Source: Pseudomonadota bacterium (GTDB lineage Bacteria > Pseudomonadota > Alphaproteobacteria > Micropepsales > Micropepsaceae). Taken from it: a stretch of DNA of 9,155 bases. This document shows, piece by piece, positions 1 through 9,155 of this stretch. Below the pieces are notes generated by a model. The model was not told where the DNA came from, ran no database searches, and worked only from the letters and a program-made list of their open reading frames with translations. The stretch is from NCBI GenBank assembly GCA_023427355.1, contig JAEZBK010000127.1:1-9155 (forward strand), given 5' to 3'. Every line of letters starts with the position of its first letter. The first letter of the stretch is position 1. The translations under genes and the position numbers were made by a program.

Positions 1-990
1 ATCTCATACCGCAACAAGCAGGGCGTGATCGTGCACAATGCCGACCGCCCCATCATCGAGAATATGGACACGCTGCCCTGGGTGACCCCGGTCTACAAGC
101 GCGACCTGCAGATGGAGAAATACTTCATCGGCTATCTCAAGCACCCCTATATCTCGATCTATACCGGCCGCGGCTGCAAGTCGCGCTGCACCTTCTGCCT
201 GTGGCCCCAGACCGTGGGCGGCCACAATTACCGCACCCGTTCGGTCCAGCATGTCGTGGAAGAGATCAAGTGGGCGATGAAGGCCTTCCCGCAGACCAAG
301 GAATTCTTCTTCGACGACGACACCTTCACCGACAACCTGCCGCGCGCCGAAGCCATCGCCGCCGAACTGGGCAAGCTCGGTATCTCCTGGGCCTGCAATG
401 CCAAGGCCAATGTGCCTTACTCTACGCTGAAGAAGCTCAAGGATGGCGGTCTGCGCCTGCTGCTCGTCGGCTATGAATCCGGCAACCAGCAGATCCTGCA
501 CAACATCAAGAAGGGCATGCGCATCGAGGTGGCCGAACAGTTCACCAAGGATTGTCACTCCCTGGGCATCCAGATTCACGGCACCTTCATCCTGGGCCTG
601 CCGGGCGAGACGCTGGAGACGATGCGCGAGACCCGCGAATTCGCCAAGCGCATCAACCCGCACACGGTGCAGATCTCGCTGGCCGCGCCCTATCCGGGCA
701 CCTTCCTCTACAATCAGGCGGTGCAGAATGGCTGGCTTGATGCCGCCAACGCCGAACTGGTGACCGATGACGGCATCCAGATCGCGCCGCTGCACTATCC
801 GCATCTGAGCCACAAGGAAATCTTCGACTCACTGGAGACCTTCTACCGCCAGTTTTATTTCCGTCCCTCCAAGATTGGCGCCATCGTCAAGGAAATGGTC
901 ACGCAGGAAGGCATGATGAAGCGCCGCCTGCGTGAGGGCGTGGAGTTCTTCCAGTTCCTGCGCGATCGCCAGAACCAGAACGCTGCCTGA
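1..990 (+). CDS. hpnJ: HpnJ, hopanoid cyclitol-ether radical SAM enzyme (5' truncated by window edge)
   Basis: The reading frame is open from base 1, so the true start lies upstream and 329 C-terminal residues are visible. A CxxxCxxC radical SAM iron-sulfur motif has its cysteine codons at 175, 187 and 196, directly followed by LWPQ. Further family-typical stretches are FFFDDDTF (about 307-330), LLVGYESGN (about 460-489) and the glycine-rich GTFILGLPGET (about 580-612). HpnJ proteins are about 470 residues with an N-terminal B12-binding-type domain, so roughly 140 residues are missing. In Burkholderia, HpnJ is needed to turn bacteriohopanetetrol glucosamine into the cyclitol ether, acting after HpnK. 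Here hpnK follows after 4 nt, which fits. The GTG at 25 is only an internal codon. I am confident of the family; the substrate in this organism is inferred from homology. Confidence 0.92.
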   Translation: MSYRNKQGVIVHNADRPIIENMDTLPWVTPVYKRDLQMEKYFIGYLKHPYISIYTGRGCKSRCTFCLWPQTVGGHNYRTRSVQHVVEEIKWAMKAFPQTKEFFFDDDTFTDNLPRAEAIAAELGKLGISWACNAKANVPYSTLKKLKDGGLRLLLVGYESGNQQILHNIKKGMRIEVAEQFTKDCHSLGIQIHGTFILGLPGETLETMRETREFAKRINPHTVQISLAAPYPGTFLYNQAVQNGWLDAANAELVTDDGIQIAPLHYPHLSHKEIFDSLETFYRQFYFRPSKIGAIVKEMVTQEGMMKRRLREGVEFFQFLRDRQNQNAA

Positions 991-994
991 CGTC

Positions 995-1837
995 TTGAAG
1001 CGTCTGGTCGTCACGGCTGACGATTTCGGCGCATCCGCCGAAGTCAATGACGCCGTTCTGGAAACCCACGCCAATGGCATCCTCACCGCCGCCAGCCTGA
1101 TGGTGGCGGCTCCGGCTGCCGCCGATGCGGTGGCGCGGGCGCGCGCCACGCCCTCGTTGCGCGTGGGGCTGCATCTGGTGCTGGTCGAAGGCAAACCAGT
1201 CCTGCCCGCATCACGGGTGCCCGACCTGGTGGACCGTAGCGGCAATTTCCGCACCGACATGGCGCGCGCGGGGGCGGCAATGTTCTTCCTGCCCCATGTG
1301 AAGAGGCAACTCGCCAGCGAGATCGCTGCGCAGTTCGAAGCCTTTCGCGCCACCGGATTGCCGCTGGATCACGTCAATGCGCACAAGCATTTTCACCTGC
1401 ATCCGACCATTGCCGCGCTGATGCTCTCCATCGGGCGCGATTTCGGCCTCAAGGCGGCGCGGGTGCCGCTGGAGCCCACAGAAACGCTGGCACGGGTCGG
1501 GGCGTACAAAGGCTCCTTTGTCGCGGCCCTGACGCGGCCCTTCGCCCAGGGGTTGCGCCGTCGTTTCGCCCGCGCGGGCATAGCCTCGCCTGACGCCGTG
1601 TTCGGCCTGGCCTGGTCCGGGGCGATGACGGCCCCGCGCCTCCAGGGCATTGTGGAAAACCTCCCCGAGGGCCTCACGGAAATCTACCTGCATCCGGCCA
1701 CTGGCCCCTATCCCGGCTGTGCTCCCGGCTATGCCTATGCGCAAGAGCGCGCCGCCCTGCTCGATCCCGCTGTCATTGCGGCAACGCAAGGCCGAGGCAT
1801 TCGCCTTGGCGGCTTTTGCGACTTTCCGATAGATTGA
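995..1837 (+). CDS. hpnK: HpnK, hopanoid N-acetylglucosamine deacetylase (YdjC-like)
   Basis: This is a 280-residue YdjC/ChbG-type carbohydrate deacetylase of the HpnK subfamily. The metal-binding N-terminal motif TADDFG (residues 7-12), GLHLVLVEG near residues 58-66 and the histidine-rich HVNAHKHFHLHP (126-137) are all present, so the active site looks intact. HpnK removes the acetyl group from N-acetylglucosaminyl bacteriohopanetetrol, giving the free amine used by HpnJ. I choose a TTG start at 995 because it puts MKRLVVTADDFG at the N-terminus, as in the family, and sits 4 nt past the hpnJ stop. A GTG at 932 would add 21 serine-rich residues overlapping hpnJ and has no family support. No strong Shine-Dalgarno precedes the TTG, so translation is probably coupled to hpnJ. 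The length is normal for the family. Confidence 0.92.
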   Translation: MKRLVVTADDFGASAEVNDAVLETHANGILTAASLMVAAPAAADAVARARATPSLRVGLHLVLVEGKPVLPASRVPDLVDRSGNFRTDMARAGAAMFFLPHVKRQLASEIAAQFEAFRATGLPLDHVNAHKHFHLHPTIAALMLSIGRDFGLKAARVPLEPTETLARVGAYKGSFVAALTRPFAQGLRRRFARAGIASPDAVFGLAWSGAMTAPRLQGIVENLPEGLTEIYLHPATGPYPGCAPGYAYAQERAALLDPAVIAATQGRGIRLGGFCDFPID

Positions 1838-1840
1838 GGG
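1836..1840 (+). promoter_or_regulatory. Ribosome binding site GAGGG for the ferritin-like gene
   Basis: GAGGG overlaps the hpnK stop codon and lies 5 nt before the ATG at 1846. It is one of the two clearest Shine-Dalgarno matches in the window and decides the start at 1846 over an in-frame TTG at 1816 inside hpnK. Confidence 0.7.
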
Positions 1841-1845
1841 CCGAC

Positions 1846-2751
1846 ATGAGCAGCCACGCGTTCAGCATCCCGCCCGAACTGACCGAAGCCACCGGCGCCT
1901 GGCCGGCCGATGGGCCGATCCGCATCGGATCCGAAGAGCACAAGCGGCTCTTCTGCAAGACGCTGCTCGATACCCACAATCCCTATCGCCCGCGCGTGCT
2001 GGACTGGCCAGTCCTTTCGGAGGATGCCGCGCGCCGCATCACCTCGCTACCCATTTGGGATATCGCGGTGCAGACCGAGAACAAGGCGAGCATGAATGTC
2101 GCCACCTATGCCGGTATGATCGGCGACCCGCTGCTGAAGAAGGCGGTGACGCTGGACGGCTACGAGGAAAAGCGCCACCGTCATGTCCTGGCCAATATGG
2201 TCGAAGCCTATGGCATCAAGCTGGCGCCTGAGCCGGTGGTTGCGCCGCCCCGCGATCCGGAATGGGCGTTCCTTGTCACCGGCTATAGCGAGTGCATTGA
2301 CAGCTTCTTCGCCTTCGGCCTGTTCAAGGCGGCGAAGGATACGGGCTATTTCCCCTCTGAACTGGTGGATACCTTCGAGCCGGTCGTGCATGAGGAAGGC
2401 CGCCACATCCTGTTTTTCGTCAACTGGATCGCCTGGCATCGCCGCAACATGCCCTTCTGGCGCCGGCCCTGGTTCGAGTTGAAGGTCCTGGCAGTCTGGA
2501 TTTTCCTGATCTGGGAGCGAATCGGCATCGCCAAGGATGTCGGCAACGGCCAGCAGGACAACAATTTTACCGTGAACGGAGCCGAACAGCTGGGCGCCGA
2601 CATCAATGTGGGCGAACTGATCGCCATCTGTGTCGCCGAGAATGACCGCCGCCTGGGCATTTTCGATCCGCGCCTCAAGCAGCCGCGCTTCGTGCCCTTC
2701 ATGGCGCGGCTTGCCCTGAAATTCATCGGCCCGAAGAAGAAACCGGCATGA
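1846..2751 (+). CDS. Ferritin-like diiron carboxylate protein of the hopanoid locus, function unknown
   Basis: This 301-residue protein has no gene name that I know. It shows the full ligand pattern of a four-helix-bundle diiron protein: E78, E108xxH111, E149 and E184xxH187, with spacings of about 30-41 residues. Each ligand lies in a plausibly helical segment (TENKAS, YEEKRHRH, YSECIDSFF, VHEEGRHILF). The hydrophobic stretch at about 213-226 (KVLAVWIFLIWERI) could be a buried helix or a membrane-contacting segment. There is no signal peptide, so it is likely cytoplasmic or associated with the inner face of the membrane. Such proteins are typically oxygen-dependent hydroxylases, desaturases or oxidases, but not all are enzymes. 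It lies 8 nt after hpnK and overlaps the next gene by 4 nt, so it is co-expressed with hopanoid side-chain enzymes. An oxidation of the hopanoid head or side chain is my inference; iron storage is unlikely at this length. Confidence 0.82.
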   Translation: MSSHAFSIPPELTEATGAWPADGPIRIGSEEHKRLFCKTLLDTHNPYRPRVLDWPVLSEDAARRITSLPIWDIAVQTENKASMNVATYAGMIGDPLLKKAVTLDGYEEKRHRHVLANMVEAYGIKLAPEPVVAPPRDPEWAFLVTGYSECIDSFFAFGLFKAAKDTGYFPSELVDTFEPVVHEEGRHILFFVNWIAWHRRNMPFWRRPWFELKVLAVWIFLIWERIGIAKDVGNGQQDNNFTVNGAEQLGADINVGELIAICVAENDRRLGIFDPRLKQPRFVPFMARLALKFIGPKKKPA

Positions 2752-3509
2752 CGCCGATCGGCCCGCAGCAGGCGCCGCGCCATGCCGGGCCCGCGACGCG
2801 GCTGTGGAATTGCATGTCCCATTATGTTGTCACACCCCAGGATTTCTGGACGCTCATTGCGGGCGGCAAGACCGATGCGCGCATCGCCGCGCTGGAAGCC
2901 GATCATGGCAAGCATGCGGCGTTCGAAGCGCTCTATGACGGCAGCGACGATCCCTGGGATACGCTCAATCCGCACCTGACATACCAGGATCGCAAGTATC
3001 GCACCGTGATGGCGCTGCTGCCGGATCGCCATTACGCCCGTGCGCTCGATCTGGGCTGCGGGCTCGGCACGCTGTCGCGCCTCCTGGCGCAGCGGGCCGA
3101 AAATGTGCTGGGTCTGGATGTGGCGCAGTCCGCCGTGCTGCGCGCCCGCGCCCGTCATGGCGCGGTCTCCAACCTTGCCTTCCAGCAGGGGGACATCGCC
3201 GGATTGCCGGGCCTGCTGGATGGCCGCTTCGATCTCATCACCATCATGGACACGCTCTATTACCTGCCCGCCACGAGCGATGCGGCGCTGGATGACGTGG
3301 CCGCGCGCGTTGCGGCGCTGCTTGAACCTGGCGGCGTCGTGATCCTCAGCAATCATCTTTTCAAGGGCGGCTGGGATAAGGCCACGCGCCTGTCGCGGCG
3401 CATAGACGCGGCTTTCTGCCGTGCGCCTGGGCTGACGCGTGTGTCCCGTCACTGGCACCCTTTCTTTCAGACCACAATCCTGGCCGCGCCGGGCGCGCAA
3501 TCGTCGTGA
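2748..3509 (+). CDS. Class I SAM-dependent methyltransferase, NodS-like
   Basis: This 253-residue protein has a Rossmann-type SAM-binding core: motif I ALDLGCGLGTLSRLL (99-113), an acidic residue after strand 2 (GLDVA, D124), GDIAGLP (148-154) and FDLITIMDTLYYL (161-173). Ahead of the core, DDPWDTLNPHLTYQDRKY (67-84) resembles the DPW...Y..RKY signature of NodS-type methyltransferases. NodS N-methylates the free glucosamine amine of chitooligosaccharides. The start overlaps the previous stop as ATGA. An internal ATG at 2814 (residue 23) is a credible alternative because the first 22 residues look unconserved. It has no transmembrane segment. Its place between the hopanoid diiron protein and hpnL suggests a hopanoid or hopanoid-precursor substrate. 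The fold is clear, the NodS affinity moderate and the substrate unknown. Confidence 0.8.
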   Translation: MTPIGPQQAPRHAGPATRLWNCMSHYVVTPQDFWTLIAGGKTDARIAALEADHGKHAAFEALYDGSDDPWDTLNPHLTYQDRKYRTVMALLPDRHYARALDLGCGLGTLSRLLAQRAENVLGLDVAQSAVLRARARHGAVSNLAFQQGDIAGLPGLLDGRFDLITIMDTLYYLPATSDAALDDVAARVAALLEPGGVVILSNHLFKGGWDKATRLSRRIDAAFCRAPGLTRVSRHWHPFFQTTILAAPGAQSS

Positions 3510-4486
3510 AGCAGATGAAGTGGGGCGTTCTCATCGCGTTGTTCGCGGGCCTTGTCGCCGCCATCTGGCTCGTCTGGGCCGTGGGTTTCGGTGCGGTATG
3601 GGGTGCGGTCGCCCAAGCCGGCTTCGGTGGCCTGGCGCTTTTGTGTCTCTATGCTTCGGCGATGCTGCTGATCGCATCCTTCGCCTGGGCCTGCATCCTG
3701 CCGCGCCCCAACCGGCCGCCGCTGCAGGATTTCTTCATCGCCAGGCTGGTGCGTGACTCCATCGGCGACCTGTCGCCTTTCTCGCCCATTGGCGGCATGG
3801 TGGCGGGCGCACGCCTGATGATCGTCAAGGGCATGAACAGCGCCTATGCCGCTGCCGCCGTGGCGGTCGACTACACCACCGAGGCGATGGCCCAGGTGGT
3901 CTTCCTGGCTTTTGGCCTTGCCGTCGCCCTCTCGGTCCTGGGCGGGCAGGGCGACATGGGCACGCTCCTGCCCACGCTCATGGGCGCGCTGGTGCTGGCC
4001 ATTCCCGCCATCACCGCCATGGTCGTGCTGCAAAAGCGCGGCGCGGGGTTTCTCGAGCGCATGACCGCGCGCTTCTTCCCCAAGGTGAAGGATGGGTTCT
4101 CCTTCCGCCAGGCGATCCACGAACTGTATGAATCTCCCCGCCACCTCGCGGCATCGGCCTTCTGGCATCTGATTGGCTGGTTCGCTTCGGGCGGCGCAAC
4201 CTGGCTGTCCTTCCACCTCGTGGGTGTTCGGATTTCGCTGATCGAAGCCATGGCGCTGGAAGCCCTGCTTTGCACGCTGCGTTCCATGGCGGTCTTCGTG
4301 CCGGCCGCCATCGGCGTGCAGGAAGGCGGCTATGCCGCGCTGGCGGTGCTGTTCGGCCTGCCGGCCGAAAGTGGTATCGCGGTGTCGCTGCTCAAGCGCG
4401 CGCGCGAAATCGTTCTGGGCGTGCCGGCACTGCTCTACTGGCAGTCCATAGAGGGCCGCGCTGCGTTGCGGGGTGCCCAGCCATGA
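3506..4486 (+). CDS. hpnL: HpnL, hopanoid-associated integral membrane protein
   Basis: This 326-residue polytopic membrane protein belongs to the lysylphosphatidylglycerol-synthase-TM/UPF0104-like superfamily, hopanoid-associated subgroup HpnL. Hydrophobic segments are visible at about 7-27, 41-63, 115-145, 154-175, 214-238 and 247-285, and again near 301-311, giving perhaps seven or eight helices. The conserved loop RDSIGDLSPFSPIGG (83-97) and the late motif PAAIGVQEGG (266-275), followed by KRAREI (297-302), are typical. There is no soluble aminoacyltransferase domain, so it is not a lipid aminoacylase. Its role is not established; transport or flipping of a hopanoid or of a lipid-linked donor is a reasonable guess. 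The GTG at 3506 overlaps the previous stop as GTGA; an ATG at 3515 is the alternative start. The gene bridges the side-chain genes and the hpnA-E block. Confidence 0.85.
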   Translation: MKQMKWGVLIALFAGLVAAIWLVWAVGFGAVWGAVAQAGFGGLALLCLYASAMLLIASFAWACILPRPNRPPLQDFFIARLVRDSIGDLSPFSPIGGMVAGARLMIVKGMNSAYAAAAVAVDYTTEAMAQVVFLAFGLAVALSVLGGQGDMGTLLPTLMGALVLAIPAITAMVVLQKRGAGFLERMTARFFPKVKDGFSFRQAIHELYESPRHLAASAFWHLIGWFASGGATWLSFHLVGVRISLIEAMALEALLCTLRSMAVFVPAAIGVQEGGYAALAVLFGLPAESGIAVSLLKRAREIVLGVPALLYWQSIEGRAALRGAQP

Positions 4487-5475
4487 GCGACACCGTCCTG
4501 GTCACCGGCGCTTCCGGCTTTGTCGGCGCCGCCGTCGCCCGCGCCGCCATGGCGCGCGGATTCCGCGTCAAGGTGCTGATGCGCGCCGCCGCCAACCATG
4601 CCAATATTGCGGGCCTGGATGTCGAGGCCGTCACCGGCGACATGCGGGACGAGGCCTCCATGACCCGCGCGCTGGATGGCGTGCGCTATCTCTTCCATGT
4701 CGCGGCCGATTACCGGCTCTGGGCGCGGGATCCGAACGAGATCGCCCGCAACAATCTGGAAGGCGCCCGCGCGGTGATGGGCGCGGCGAAAACCACCGGC
4801 GTCGAGCGTATTATCTACACCTCTTCCGTTGCCGCCCTGAAGCCGGTCAACGGCATGGCGGTGAACGAGACCTCGCGCCACACGCCCGACACGGTGATCG
4901 GCGCCTACAAGCTCTCCAAGCTGCTGGCCGAACGCGAGGTCGAACGCCGCATCGCCGAGGAAGGGCTTCCTTGCGTGATCGTTTCGCCTTCCACCCCCAT
5001 CGGCCCGCGCGATATCAAGCCCACGCCGACGGGTCGCATCATCGTCGAGATGGCCAATGGCAAGATGCCCGCCTTCCTCGATACTGGTCTCAATCTGGCG
5101 CATGTCGAGGATGTGGCCGAAGGCCATTTCCTGGCGCTGGAAAGGGGGCGCATCGGCGAAAACTACATCCTGGGCGGGACCGATGTGCCGCTCGAAGCCA
5201 TGCTGGCCGATATCGGCGCGATGGTCGGCCGCAAGGCGCCGCGCCTCAAGCTGCCGCGCGCCCCCTTGTTCCCGCTGGCCTATGCCGCCGAAGCCGTGGC
5301 CCGCTTTACCGGCAAGGAGCCGTTCCTCACCGCCGATGCGCTGCGCATGTCGCGCTATCGCATGTTCTTCTCCTGGGAAAAGGCCAAGACCGAGCTTGGC
5401 TATGAAGCCCGGCCCTATGGGAAGGGCCTGGAAGATGCACTGGCCTGGTTCGGCAGCAACGGATACCTGCGATGA
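4483..5475 (+). CDS. hpnA: HpnA, hopanoid-associated NAD(P)-dependent sugar epimerase/reductase (extended SDR)
   Basis: This 330-residue extended short-chain dehydrogenase is of the usual HpnA length. The N-terminus carries the nucleotide-binding motif TGASGFVG (8-15), and FHVAADYRLW (71-80) matches the HpnA signature. The catalytic elements are S114/S115 (IYTSS) and YxxxK with Y142 and K146. The segment STPIGPRDIKPTPTG (170-184) and the later GENYILGG (225-232) are strongly HpnA-like and resemble dihydroflavonol-4-reductases. It is soluble with no signal peptide. The family co-occurs with hopanoid genes, but its reaction is not firmly known; reduction or epimerisation of a side-chain sugar intermediate is the common proposal. 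The start is fixed by the ATGA overlap with the hpnL stop, which puts the glycine motif at the expected distance. It overlaps hpnB in the same way. Confidence 0.92.
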   Translation: MSDTVLVTGASGFVGAAVARAAMARGFRVKVLMRAAANHANIAGLDVEAVTGDMRDEASMTRALDGVRYLFHVAADYRLWARDPNEIARNNLEGARAVMGAAKTTGVERIIYTSSVAALKPVNGMAVNETSRHTPDTVIGAYKLSKLLAEREVERRIAEEGLPCVIVSPSTPIGPRDIKPTPTGRIIVEMANGKMPAFLDTGLNLAHVEDVAEGHFLALERGRIGENYILGGTDVPLEAMLADIGAMVGRKAPRLKLPRAPLFPLAYAAEAVARFTGKEPFLTADALRMSRYRMFFSWEKAKTELGYEARPYGKGLEDALAWFGSNGYLR

Positions 5476-6647
5476 TGGACCTGCTGCTTTGGCCGCTGCA
5501 CAATATCGCCGGTTTCGTCTTCGGCGTGATCCCGCTGCTTATCTGGCTGCATCTGGCGTTCGGGCGCAGCCTGTTCTGGCTGTTTCGCGAACGCGACGCC
5601 GACCAGCGCCTGCCTGCACCCGAAGCCTGGCCCAGGGTGGTGGCGGTCGTGCCGGCCCGTGACGAGGCCGACGTCATTGCCCGTTCGCTCGGCAGCCTGA
5701 TCGCACAGAGTTATGCAGGCGAATTCCACATCATTCTGGTGGACGACCAGAGCGATGACGGCACCGCCATCGCCGCCCGCGCCCTGAGCGGCGGCAATGT
5801 TACCGTCCTCAATGGCTCTGCCCGCCCGCCGGGCTGGACGGGCAAGCTCTGGGCGATGCACCAGGGGCTGGAAGCAGCGCGGGACAGGGCGCCCGATTAT
5901 GTATGGTTCACCGATGCCGATATCGCCCATGCGCCCGACAATCTCGCCCGGCTGGTGGCCCGTGCCGAATCCGGCGGGCTCGTCCTTACGTCGCAAATGG
6001 CGAAACTGTCTGCCCGCACGCTGGTCGAGCATTTCCTGATCCCGGCCTTCGTCTTTTTCTTCGCCATGCTCTATCCCTTCGGCGCGGTGAATGATCCCCG
6101 GCGCAAGCTGGCGGCAGCGGCGGGCGGCTGCATGCTGGCGCGCCGCGACGCGCTGGAGGCTGTGGGCGGCATCGAAGCCATCCGCCGCAACATCATCGAT
6201 GATGTCAGCTTGGGAAAACTGATGAAGGGGCAGGGTCCCATATGGCTTGGGCTGTCCAACCGCGCCGTGTCCCTGCGGCCCTATGAAAAGCTGTCGGAAG
6301 TGCGGCGCATGGTGGCGCGCTCCGCCTTCGCCGAGCTGGATTATTCGCTTCTGAAACTAATCGGTACGCTGGCGGGCCTGGTGCTGGTCTATCTGGCGCC
6401 GCCCGCCGTCGCCCAGTTCGCCAACGGCCCGTCCCAGATCGCCGGCTGGATTGCCTGCATCATCATGGTGGTGATGATGCAGCCCATCCTGCGCTACTAC
6501 CGCCTGTCGCCGCTCTGGGCCTTCACCCTGCCCATCATCGCGGGCTTCTATGCCTTCTTCACCCTGGATTCGGCCATCAAATACTGGCAGGGCAGGGGCG
6601 GCATGTGGAAAGGCCGCGCCCAGAGCGCGGCGCGGAGCGAAGCATGA
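5472..6647 (+). CDS. hpnB: HpnB, hopanoid-associated family 2 glycosyltransferase
   Basis: This 391-residue membrane-anchored GT-A glycosyltransferase starts with a hydrophobic segment at about 11-38. The catalytic domain follows: VVAVVPARDEADVIARSL (56-73), the nucleotide-binding acidic pair D91-D92 (LVDDQSDDGT), the metal-binding DAD at 148-150, GGCMLARRDAL (218-228) and the acidic pair D243-D244, which probably supplies the catalytic base. Hydrophobic helices follow at about 186-204, 296-313, 323-340 and 349-366. The active site is predicted to face the cytoplasm. HpnB is a hopanoid-cluster family; a sugar transfer to the hopanoid side chain or a lipid carrier is plausible but unproven. 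It should not be confused with HpnI, which adds N-acetylglucosamine. The ATG at 5472 overlaps the hpnA stop, and a second ATG follows at once at 5475. All key residues are intact. Confidence 0.92.
   Translation: MMDLLLWPLHNIAGFVFGVIPLLIWLHLAFGRSLFWLFRERDADQRLPAPEAWPRVVAVVPARDEADVIARSLGSLIAQSYAGEFHIILVDDQSDDGTAIAARALSGGNVTVLNGSARPPGWTGKLWAMHQGLEAARDRAPDYVWFTDADIAHAPDNLARLVARAESGGLVLTSQMAKLSARTLVEHFLIPAFVFFFAMLYPFGAVNDPRRKLAAAAGGCMLARRDALEAVGGIEAIRRNIIDDVSLGKLMKGQGPIWLGLSNRAVSLRPYEKLSEVRRMVARSAFAELDYSLLKLIGTLAGLVLVYLAPPAVAQFANGPSQIAGWIACIIMVVMMQPILRYYRLSPLWAFTLPIIAGFYAFFTLDSAIKYWQGRGGMWKGRAQSAARSEA
6634..6637 (+). promoter_or_regulatory. Ribosome binding site GGAG for hpnC
   Basis: GGAG lies inside the end of hpnB, 6 nt before the ATG at 6644. 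It supports that start over the in-frame GTG at 6605 and shows that hpnC can be initiated independently as well as by coupling to hpnB. Confidence 0.6.
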
Positions 6648-7507
6648 GTACGCCTCTGCAACAGGCCAGCGCGCTTCAGTCTGGCAAGGATCACACGGGC
6701 GAAAACTTCCCGGTCGCCTCGAAACTGATCGCGCCGCAATTCCGGCCGCCCGTGATGGCCTTCTACAAATTCGTGCGCTTCGCCGACGATATCGCCGACC
6801 ATGCCACGGCCACGGCCGAGGAAAAGTTGCGCCTGCTGGAAGACATGCGCGCCACCCTGGCCGGTGAAAGCGACGCTTCGCCAGAAGGCGTGCGGCTGCG
6901 CGCGAGCCTGGCAGACCGTGGCCTCTCGCCGGTCCATGCCTTTGACCTGCTCACGGCCTTCCGGCTGGACGTTACCAAGGATTGCTATGCCGACTGGGAC
7001 GACCTGTTGGATTATTGTCGCTATTCCGCCATGCCGGTGGGGCGCTTCGTGCTGGCGGTGCATGGCGAAAGCGAAGATCTCTGGCCCGTCAATGATGCCC
7101 TGTGCGCCGCGCTGCAGGTGATCAATCATCTGCAGGATTGCGGCAAGGACTGGCGCAATCTCGGCCGCGTCTACCTGCCGCGCGACGCCCTGGCCGCTGC
7201 CGGCGCCGATGTCGCGGATCTGGGCGCGCCGCAGGCCAGCCCCGCCCTGAAGGCGGTCCTGCACGGCCTGGCGGCCAAAAACGCGCAATTGCTGGAAAAA
7301 TCCCATATATTCCCCCGCCGCATCCGCAACGCGCGGCTTGCCTTGGAGGTGGATCTCATCCAAACCCTCGCCGAAGATCTGAATGCCAAGCTGATGCGCC
7401 GCGATCCGCTCTGTGAGCCCGTGCACCATTCCAAGTTCGACGTCGCGCGCCTGTTCCTGCCGCGGCTGCCGCTTTTCGCGGTCCGCCGCCTGATGGGGCG
7501 GCCATGA
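6644..7507 (+). CDS. hpnC: HpnC, hydroxysqualene synthase
   Basis: This 287-residue member of the squalene/phytoene synthase family has the HpnC pattern. The N-terminal HTGENFPVAS (17-26) is typical. The first aspartate-rich motif FADDIAD (46-52) and the second, NHLQDCGKD (161-169), which uses NHLQD where HpnD uses TNILRD, would bind magnesium-diphosphate. Known work on HpnCDE shows that HpnC converts presqualene diphosphate to hydroxysqualene, the second step of the three-enzyme route to squalene. It is predicted to be a soluble or peripheral membrane protein. The ATG at 6644 overlaps the hpnB stop as ATGA and has a good GGAG upstream. The downstream hpnD overlap is again ATGA, fitting balanced production of consecutive enzymes. 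Length and motifs are complete. Confidence 0.94.
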   Translation: MSTPLQQASALQSGKDHTGENFPVASKLIAPQFRPPVMAFYKFVRFADDIADHATATAEEKLRLLEDMRATLAGESDASPEGVRLRASLADRGLSPVHAFDLLTAFRLDVTKDCYADWDDLLDYCRYSAMPVGRFVLAVHGESEDLWPVNDALCAALQVINHLQDCGKDWRNLGRVYLPRDALAAAGADVADLGAPQASPALKAVLHGLAAKNAQLLEKSHIFPRRIRNARLALEVDLIQTLAEDLNAKLMRRDPLCEPVHHSKFDVARLFLPRLPLFAVRRLMGRP

Positions 7508-8352
7508 CCGGCACGCTGGATGCGCCCCAGGCTGCGGCGGTGAAGAAAAAGGCCAGTGGCAGTTCCTTCTACCTGGCCATGCGGCTGATGCCCGAGGCCG
7601 AGCGGGAGGCGATGTTCGCCATCTACGCCTTCTGCCGCAAGGTGGACGATATTGCCGATGACGGTATCGGCACCCGCGAGGAGCGCCGCAGGAAACTGGA
7701 TGGCTGGCGCGACGATATTGCCGCCCTCTATCGCGGCCAGCCCGCCGGTCAGGCGCAGTTCCTGTCGGCCATCGTGGCGAAATATGGCCTGCGCCAGGAA
7801 GATTTCATCGCCATCCTGGATGGCATGGCCATGGACGTGGCCGAAGACATTGTCGCCCCCGACCTTGCGACTCTCGACCTGTATTGCGATCGTGTCGCCA
7901 GCGCCGTGGGGCGCCTCTCCATCAAGGTTTTCGGCATGGAAGAGGGGCCGGGCTTCGATCTGGCTTATCACCTGGGCCGTGCGCTTCAGCTCACCAACAT
8001 CCTGCGCGACATCGACGAGGATGCCGCCATCGGGCGCCTCTATCTGCCGCGCGAATATCTCTATGAACTGGATTGTGCCCGCGCCCTCGATCCGCGCTGG
8101 ATCGTGAACCAGCCGCAGATTGATGGCGTCTGCCGCAAGGTGGCTGCGCTGGCCCACACCCATTATGCCGCCGCCAGGAAGATCATGGAGGGCCGGCCGA
8201 AAGGCCGCATTGCCACCCCGGCGCTGATGGGGGCGGTCTATTCGGAAATCCTGGCGGTGAACGAGAAGGCGGGCTTCGCCGCGCCGCGCCATCGCGTGTC
8301 CTTGAGCAAGTGGCGGCTCCTGATGCTCGTCGTGAAGCATGGCCTCGGGTAA
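7504..8352 (+). CDS. hpnD: HpnD, presqualene diphosphate synthase
   Basis: This 282-residue squalene/phytoene synthase family protein condenses two farnesyl diphosphates to presqualene diphosphate, the first step of the HpnCDE route. SFYLAMRLMP (21-30) is the substrate-region signature. The first aspartate-rich motif is VDDIADD (47-53), and the second is ALQLTNILRDIDEDA (160-174) with D169, D171 and D173. GRLYLPREYL (177-186) follows, as in canonical family members. HpnC and HpnD share ancestry but differ in the second motif, which lets me assign each one. The first 18 residues are a short variable tail (alanine- and lysine-rich). The start overlaps the hpnC stop by 4 nt. The gene ends in TAA, unlike the TGA used by every upstream gene, and its last 14 nt overlap hpnE. 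Confidence 0.94.
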   Translation: MTGTLDAPQAAAVKKKASGSSFYLAMRLMPEAEREAMFAIYAFCRKVDDIADDGIGTREERRRKLDGWRDDIAALYRGQPAGQAQFLSAIVAKYGLRQEDFIAILDGMAMDVAEDIVAPDLATLDLYCDRVASAVGRLSIKVFGMEEGPGFDLAYHLGRALQLTNILRDIDEDAAIGRLYLPREYLYELDCARALDPRWIVNQPQIDGVCRKVAALAHTHYAAARKIMEGRPKGRIATPALMGAVYSEILAVNEKAGFAAPRHRVSLSKWRLLMLVVKHGLG

Positions 8353-9155
8353 AGCCTATGTCATCGGCGCTGGCGTGGCTGGGCTGGCGGCGGCGACCGC
8401 GCTGGCCATGCGGGGCGTGCCGGTCACCCTGTTCGAGGCGGGGCCGCAAGCCGGTGGCCGCTGCCGTTCCTATTTCGACCCTGCCATCGGTGCGGTGATC
8501 GACAATGGCAACCACCTGGTCCTGTCGGGCAACCGCGCGGTGCAGGCCTACCTCCAGCGCATCGGCGCCCACGATGCCCTGATCGGCCCCGATCACGCGG
8601 TGGTGGATTTTGTCGATCTGCGCGATGACCTGCGCTGGCGCCTGCAGCTGAGCGACGGTCTGTTCCCGGCCTGGGTTTTTGCTGGCAACCGCCGCGTGCC
8701 CGGCACGAAGCCCGCCGATTACGCCGCCTATGGCAAGCTGCTTTGGGCCGGCCGCAAGGCCACCATCGGCCAGACCGTCACCGACCGTGGCCCCTTGTGG
8801 CGGCGGCTGATGCAGCCATTTCTCGTCTCGGCCCTCAACACCGAAGCCGAAACGGCTTCCGCGGCGCTGGCCGGTTCGGTGATCCGGCAAAGCCTGGCCA
8901 GGGGCGGGCAAGCCAGCCGGCCGCGCATCGCCCATCCCACGCTGGCCGCCGCTTTCGTGGATCCGGCGCTGAAATACCTCGAAGCCAGGGGTGCGGTGGT
9001 GCATCTGGGCACCCGTCTGCGCGGTTTCACCATCGCCGGGCGCGCGGCCCGCGCGCTGGAATTTCCCGATGCCACCATTCCCACCGGCATGAAGGATGCC
9101 ATCATCCTGGCGGTGAACGCGCCGGTAGCGCAGGGCCTGTTGCCCGGTCTTGCTG
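8339..9155 (+). CDS. hpnE: HpnE, FAD-dependent hydroxysqualene reductase (3' truncated by window edge)
   Basis: This frame runs open from an ATG at 8339 to the window end, giving 272 residues of a protein usually about 420 long. The N-terminus is a FAD-binding Rossmann motif: VIGAGVAGLAAA with glycines 10, 12 and 15, E33 at the end of strand 2 (TLFEAG) for the adenosine ribose, then the GGR at 39-41 typical of amine oxidase/desaturase-like flavoproteins. DNGNHLVLSGN (55-65) and QPFLVSALNTE (about 158-168) match the hopanoid squalene-associated desaturase family. Despite that name, HpnE reduces hydroxysqualene to squalene with a reduced cofactor. The start lies 14 nt inside hpnD, so the two are translationally coupled; no strong ribosome binding site is seen. 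A squalene-hopene cyclase gene is the expected next neighbour but lies outside the window. Confidence 0.92.
   Translation, partial: MASGKAYVIGAGVAGLAAATALAMRGVPVTLFEAGPQAGGRCRSYFDPAIGAVIDNGNHLVLSGNRAVQAYLQRIGAHDALIGPDHAVVDFVDLRDDLRWRLQLSDGLFPAWVFAGNRRVPGTKPADYAAYGKLLWAGRKATIGQTVTDRGPLWRRLMQPFLVSALNTEAETASAALAGSVIRQSLARGGQASRPRIAHPTLAAAFVDPALKYLEARGAVVHLGTRLRGFTIAGRAARALEFPDATIPTGMKDAIILAVNAPVAQGLLPGLA

Follow-up and report, generated by a model that had tools for sequence, protein, structure and literature searches.

A candidate diiron hydroxylase for the hopanoid side chain, encoded in a hopanoid operon of a Micropepsaceae bacterium

Which enzymes add the hydroxyl groups that turn hopanoid tetrols into bacteriohopanepentol and bacteriohopanehexol? 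According to a 2025 survey of 54 alphaproteobacteria (PMC12583986), the genes for these two compounds are unknown, and an inspection of the surroundings of the hpn clusters turned up no candidate (published lipid data are quoted throughout from excerpts of the papers cited). The question is raised anew by a 9,155-nucleotide stretch of DNA from a Micropepsaceae bacterium (assembly GCA_023427355.1, contig JAEZBK010000127.1, positions 1 to 9,155, forward strand), hereafter called the window. Embedded among its hopanoid genes is one for a diiron-type protein, which we designate DiFe1 (P0001). Our preferred reading, held with moderate confidence, is that DiFe1 is an O2-using diiron hydroxylase of the hopanoid side chain that converts tetrol types to pentol, with C-31 as the predicted position; as such it is a candidate for a gap already acknowledged in the literature.

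The gene extends from an ATG at 1846 to a stop codon at 2749-2751; it lies 8 bp downstream of hpnK and overlaps the following methyltransferase gene by 4 bp. The original prediction, made from the window alone, had claimed this reading frame with its start, its place in a near-gapless operon and, in the 301-residue product, the six residues proposed as diiron ligands (E78, E108xxH111, E149 and E184xxH187), and each of these points was confirmed. A loose E/ExxH/E/ExxH set arises in 153 of 20,000 shuffles of the DiFe1 sequence, or about 1 in 130, and conservation of the ligands is a stronger test than occurrence of the motif alone. All six are invariant in 25/25 close homologues and present in 28/28 diverse members sharing 28 to 89% identity, and the pattern is found in 79 of 80 orthologue loci and in 27/27 tandem paralogues. 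Forty-two of the 43 rows of alignment A2 have the full set (this alignment holds the window's sequence and those of 42 of the 80 loci; the intact genes of L068 and L076 are omitted, five of the six fused loci described below are placed in alignment A3 instead, and the remainder were omitted to limit size). The exception, L041 (4062-4952), is the sole orthologue among the 80 with an altered ligand, a Q replacing H111. Helix 3 offers two ligand candidates, E149 and D152, and E149 is the one retained in the 28 diverse members. Structure prediction, a check named in the original prediction, gave an AlphaFold model (predicted local distance difference test, pLDDT, 84.2; predicted template modelling score, pTM, 0.84) that places the ligands in helices 71-89, 95-121, 138-166 and 178-201, one ligand group per core helix. 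DiFe1 is thereby predicted to have an R2-like fold, and the fold of the model matches that of R2 or R2-like oxidases.

The association of the family with hopanoid genes was examined first around the gene itself, by probing the flanks fetched at 80 loci with the window proteins. At least one hpn gene is present at 69 of them, hpnJ or hpnK at 63, and hpnK lies directly upstream of DiFe1 at 40, so homologues are not mostly away from hopanoid genes. A neighbourhood-free test used 563 genomes drawn evenly from two classes. Among 289 alphaproteobacterial genomes, the DiFe1 gene was found in 18, hpnH in 77 and hpnJ in 24 (HpnJ threshold, E 1e-150), and every one of the 18 carriers has hpnH. Among 274 genomes of Gammaproteobacteria in the wide sense (the class of a Burkholderia genome), the gene was found in 3 and hpnH in 36, again including all 3 carriers. 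When the classes are pooled, hpnH is present in 21/21 carriers versus 113/563 genomes overall (hypergeometric p of 9e-12 for Alphaproteobacteria and about 3e-13 for the pool without the profile-source genomes G001, G015, G017 and G008, values that are optimistic because related genomes are not independent). Plasmid records tell the same: hpnH accompanies the gene in 11 of 13 carriers, versus 31 of 72,556 records at E 1e-60, and a twelfth has hpnJ beside the DiFe1 gene. Ligand conservation, fold, neighbourhood and co-occurrence together support well the earlier claim of a diiron-type protein in hopanoid biosynthesis. In the family to which genome G015 belongs, the gene is also present in 29 of 60 genomes. 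On seven Azospirillum replicons and one Methylobacterium replicon that bear hpnH, DiFe1 was not found with three queries, the chromosomes being outside this search. The Rhizobiales label of locus L017 is doubtful, since the genome behind it falls in the family that also supplied those of L001 and L029. A 16S match was obtained for 14 of 79 genomes, and for the three compared with plasmid records the best rows listed were 91-92% identical, too distant to place them. A Cupriavidus genome (G013, locus L070) has two HpnJ copies above the cut-off, and one hpnJ is located some 6 kb away from its diiron gene.

Carriers that could be matched to published lipid data make pentol or hexol types in 4 of 4 cases, a suggestive match. 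Stakelama sediminis DSM 27203 carries the gene (L061) and is the very strain that was profiled; the others are Gluconacetobacter diazotrophicus PA1 5 (P0312), Enhydrobacter aerosaccus (P0171, which we take to come, as is likely, from the profiled type strain) and Burkholderia cenocepacia, where the gene was seen in a strain other than K56-2. Table 3 of PMC12583986 lists 20% pentol for S. sediminis, 6% pentol for G. diazotrophicus and 77% pentol plus hexol for E. aerosaccus, which makes both in free and carbamoyl forms; B. cenocepacia K56-2 makes a pentol cyclitol ether (PMC8560942). The Stakelama genome has one copy, and its order is not reported, in the excerpts used, to make hexol. Enhydrobacter is placed near Reyranella in the Rhodospirillales by PMC12583986 but in the Hyphomicrobiales by the NCBI taxonomy. 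Gene and pentol also agree at the level of genus in Acetobacter and in Rhodopila (P0330), which makes a pentol cyclitol ether, with 19% pentol in R. globiformis. Pentol at 1% is listed as well for Enterovirga (Hyphomicrobiales) and Rhizomicrobium (Micropepsales) in the same Table 3, and bacteriohopanehexol has been reported from Methylomirabilis oxyfera, an organism that generates oxygen itself (PMC5516240).

In the proposed mechanism, two irons would be bound by the six predicted ligands and would react with O2, drawing on a general ferredoxin or flavin reductase for electrons, to form a diiron intermediate of peroxo or high-valent type. This intermediate would abstract a hydrogen from the CH2 adjoining the tetrol, where a hydroxyl would then be placed. 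The substrate would be the polyol chain that hopanoids share, such that cyclitol ether, carbamoyl and free forms could all be served; action on a shared chain fits the looser tie of the gene to hpnJ than to hpnH.

Hexol would require a further step, for which a second ferritin-like gene, DiFe2, is a candidate. It follows DiFe1 in 27 of the 80 loci, at 33-36% identity and with the same ligands, and could carry out the same reaction at C-30. In 6 of those 27 loci (L036, L039, L043, L048, L051 and L054) the two form a single open reading frame (ORF) of about 581 codons with an hpnL-like gene adjoining; neither hpnJ nor hpnK was seen there within the stretch examined. Both ligand sets are complete in 33/33 aligned fused proteins, and the model of a fused protein (pLDDT 81.9, pTM 0.53) shows two R2-like halves. 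Such fusion points to a single process in which both sites take part, and the tandem, sometimes fused, arrangement suggests a two-step pair. The fuller proposal, which we put forward tentatively, is that these proteins are the missing pentol and hexol enzyme family: hydroxylation at C-31 would fall to DiFe1 and that at C-30 to DiFe2, with the two diiron sites acting one after the other on one side chain, and the oxygen count of that chain would report on genes and oxygen alike. Both paralogues lie around hpnH in genome G088, which encodes a protein 70% identical to that of Enhydrobacter; this arrangement is in line with Enhydrobacter hexol if the two are related. Two DiFe1-type proteins each were also observed in Neoasaia chiangmaiensis (P0289, P0302) and Acidisoma sp. 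7E03 (P0299, P0307). Asaia siamensis, likely a relative of Neoasaia to judge by the name, is a strong hexol maker.

Sequence comparison sets DiFe1 apart from described families. It stays under every cut-off in Pfam, where a single chance match (E 0.053) was obtained, and has no match at all in NCBIfam; a sequence search of solved structures returned chance matches only, and a search of the open-access literature found no paper naming the family. Among 8,000 scored candidates, 7,761 are relatives; the few close ones bearing an organism name are Rhizomicrobium sp., which suggests that the window probably derives from that group. The closest known systems are the R2-like ligand-binding oxidase and ribonucleotide reductase R2 (PDB 6qrz, 3ee4, 4m1h), from which DiFe1 differs by having no PF00268 match and no significant sequence similarity, and by being encoded in a hopanoid operon. 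Also close are the AurF-type N-oxygenases and VlmB (PF11583, PDB 2jcd, 8wvr). DiFe1 itself has no match to PF11583; four fused relatives are labelled with it in a database column, two of which gave 24.1 and 25.4 bits on rescanning, below the cut-off of 29.6. AurF has one extra histidine ligand. A working analogue of the proposed chemistry is AcsF (Mg-protoporphyrin IX monomethyl ester cyclase), which acts as a diiron-dependent hydroxylase on a CH2 group of a side chain; its model NF010172 matches DiFe2 (E 0.007) and a fused member (E 0.005) very weakly, at 15.5 and 16 bits versus a cut-off of 391. HpnP, HpnR, HpnH and HpnJ act on hopanoids, as is proposed for DiFe1, whose gene travels with hpnH, but they are radical S-adenosylmethionine (SAM) enzymes, whereas DiFe1 has a predicted ferritin-like diiron site.

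Several observations weigh against a side-chain hydroxylase. Taken by itself, the agreement in 3/3 profiled alphaproteobacterial carriers is weak evidence, since by our count Table 3 of PMC12583986 has 48 BHPD makers and 21 of these are positive, 1% values included; furthermore, no named pentol-negative species is shown to be gene-free genome-wide. The pentol share of G. diazotrophicus is low, and that of Rhizomicrobium palustre is the 1% given above, this species being linked to DiFe1 only by the genus of close relatives. Rhodopila, a genus with the gene, makes pentol, and these phototrophs can grow, and often are grown, without oxygen; the growth mode behind the liquid chromatography-mass spectrometry list of PMC8590665 is not stated in the part used. 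Eleven of the 80 loci have no nearby hpn gene, 9 of them from Burkholderia or Paraburkholderia (6 of the 11 end at a contig edge), and in the thirteenth plasmid carrier, the record from P. phymatum, both hpnH and hpnJ are missing. ORF listing at ten loci (nine of the hpn-less ones and the fused L036) revealed no common partner by eye, the neighbours being taken without a family scan. Finally, hhalign pairs both ExxH motifs with those of AurF and R2 but offsets E149 by 3-4 residues, a hint only, given low probabilities (4-36%) and some faulty reference rows.

Could DiFe1 be confined to the cyclitol-ether branch, perhaps oxidizing glucosamine or the cyclitol together with HpnJ and HpnK? The presence of hpnJ or hpnK at most loci speaks for this, as does an HpnJ above the cut-off in 23/23 tested carrier genomes, all with close homologues and taken from those behind the 80 loci; genomes with hpnJ are over-represented among carriers (overall p 1e-6, falling to 0.05 when only genomes with hpnH are considered). 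However, the association seen in close homologues does not extend to the whole family: at the threshold given above, 9 of the 18 alphaproteobacterial carriers have HpnJ and 9 do not (genome completeness is not told, and an absent hpnJ may be an assembly gap), and 15 of the 24 alphaproteobacterial genomes with HpnJ lack the DiFe1 gene. Because the tie to hpnH is tighter than that to hpnJ, the DiFe1 gene goes with the polyol hopanoids as a whole and not specifically with the cyclitol ether; the free and carbamoyl pentol and hexol of Enhydrobacter, which a cyclitol-specific step would leave unexplained, point the same way. The HpnJ survey led us to reject a strict cyclitol-ether function as the main explanation, and we regard it as unlikely. 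Among the three options of the original prediction (hydroxylation of the side chain, oxidation of the cyclitol and modification of the head), the first is therefore favoured; its interpretation is partly supported, being right in kind and now sharpened, with the paralogue, the fusion and the published pentol/hexol gap as additions.

Slightly more doubtful still is the idea that DiFe1, as a peroxidase or by scavenging oxygen and handling iron, protects the radical-SAM enzymes HpnH and HpnJ, which are sensitive to oxygen. The partner genes hpnH and hpnJ do encode such enzymes, and there is weak similarity to rubrerythrin, since two fused relatives among ten proteins scanned pass the PF02915 cut-off (26.7 and 25.9 bits versus 22.8). 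DiFe1 itself has no PF02915 match, though, 59 of the 77 alphaproteobacterial genomes with hpnH do without it, and the tandem and fused arrangements, with two complete sites, have the look of catalysts. Least likely is a ring desaturase for the delta-6 or delta-11 double bonds, themselves without a known gene: the R2-like fold is common to plant acyl-ACP desaturase (2uw1), unsaturated forms abound in the Acetobacteraceae, a family that includes many carriers, and B. cenocepacia makes them (PMC8560942), but in Table 3 of PMC12583986, the comparison on which we judged this reading less likely, unsaturation is 0% in Stakelama and 1% in Enhydrobacter despite the gene, while Afipia broomeae, on lipid data alone, has 43% unsaturated forms and 0% pentol.

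The operon of the window (Table 1) has the order hpnJ-hpnK-DiFe1-methyltransferase-hpnL-A-B-C-D-E and is near gapless, with overlaps all along the hpnL-hpnE run. HpnK, HpnL, HpnA, HpnB, HpnC and HpnD pass their NCBIfam cut-offs. HpnJ (545.6 bits, model positions 157-471/472, frame read from 25; cut-off 577.6) and HpnE (cut-off 283) remain below theirs because both are truncated by window edges. The methyltransferase occupies the slot of DiFe2, a substitution repeated among the 80 loci only in L019, while 21 of the 22 closest loci have DiFe2 there. A methylated cyclitol ether is reported in Tistlia consotensis, its methyl position not being known there, and the window enzyme is possibly a head-group methyltransferase.

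Table 1. Genes of the window and the family matches of their products
Feature	Coordinates	Strand	Details
hpnJ, cobalamin-binding radical-SAM enzyme, cyclitol ether; 5' end truncated by window edge	1..990	+	TIGR03471
hpnK, deacetylase	995..1837	+	TIGR03473, 368 bits; start TTG 995 read from sequence
DiFe1, diiron-type protein	1846..2751	+	301 aa; predicted ligands E78, E108, H111, E149, E184, H187
Class I SAM methyltransferase	2748..3509	+	Pfam Methyltransf_25, NodS-like
hpnL, flippase-like membrane protein	3506..4486	+	TIGR03476, 267 bits
hpnA, sugar-epimerase-like	4483..5475	+	TIGR03466, 461 bits; start ATG 4483 counted from ORF
hpnB, glycosyltransferase-like	5472..6647	+	TIGR03469, 495 bits
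hpnC, squalene synthase	6605..7507	+	TIGR03464, 276 bits
hpnD, presqualene diphosphate synthase	7504..8352	+	TIGR03465, 311 bits
hpnE, hydroxysqualene dehydroxylase; 3' end truncated by window edge	8339..9155	+	TIGR03467, 226 bits, model positions 2-272/430

Bacteriohopanepolyols in sediments are molecular fossils, and the hydroxyls of their side chains help to distinguish sources. With DiFe1, a family tied to hpnH, present in the matched pentol makers and endowed with a plausible chemistry, a published open question becomes testable. If the proposal is true, the gene would serve as a genetic marker for the pentol and hexol biomarkers, and perhaps also as an indicator of oxygen.
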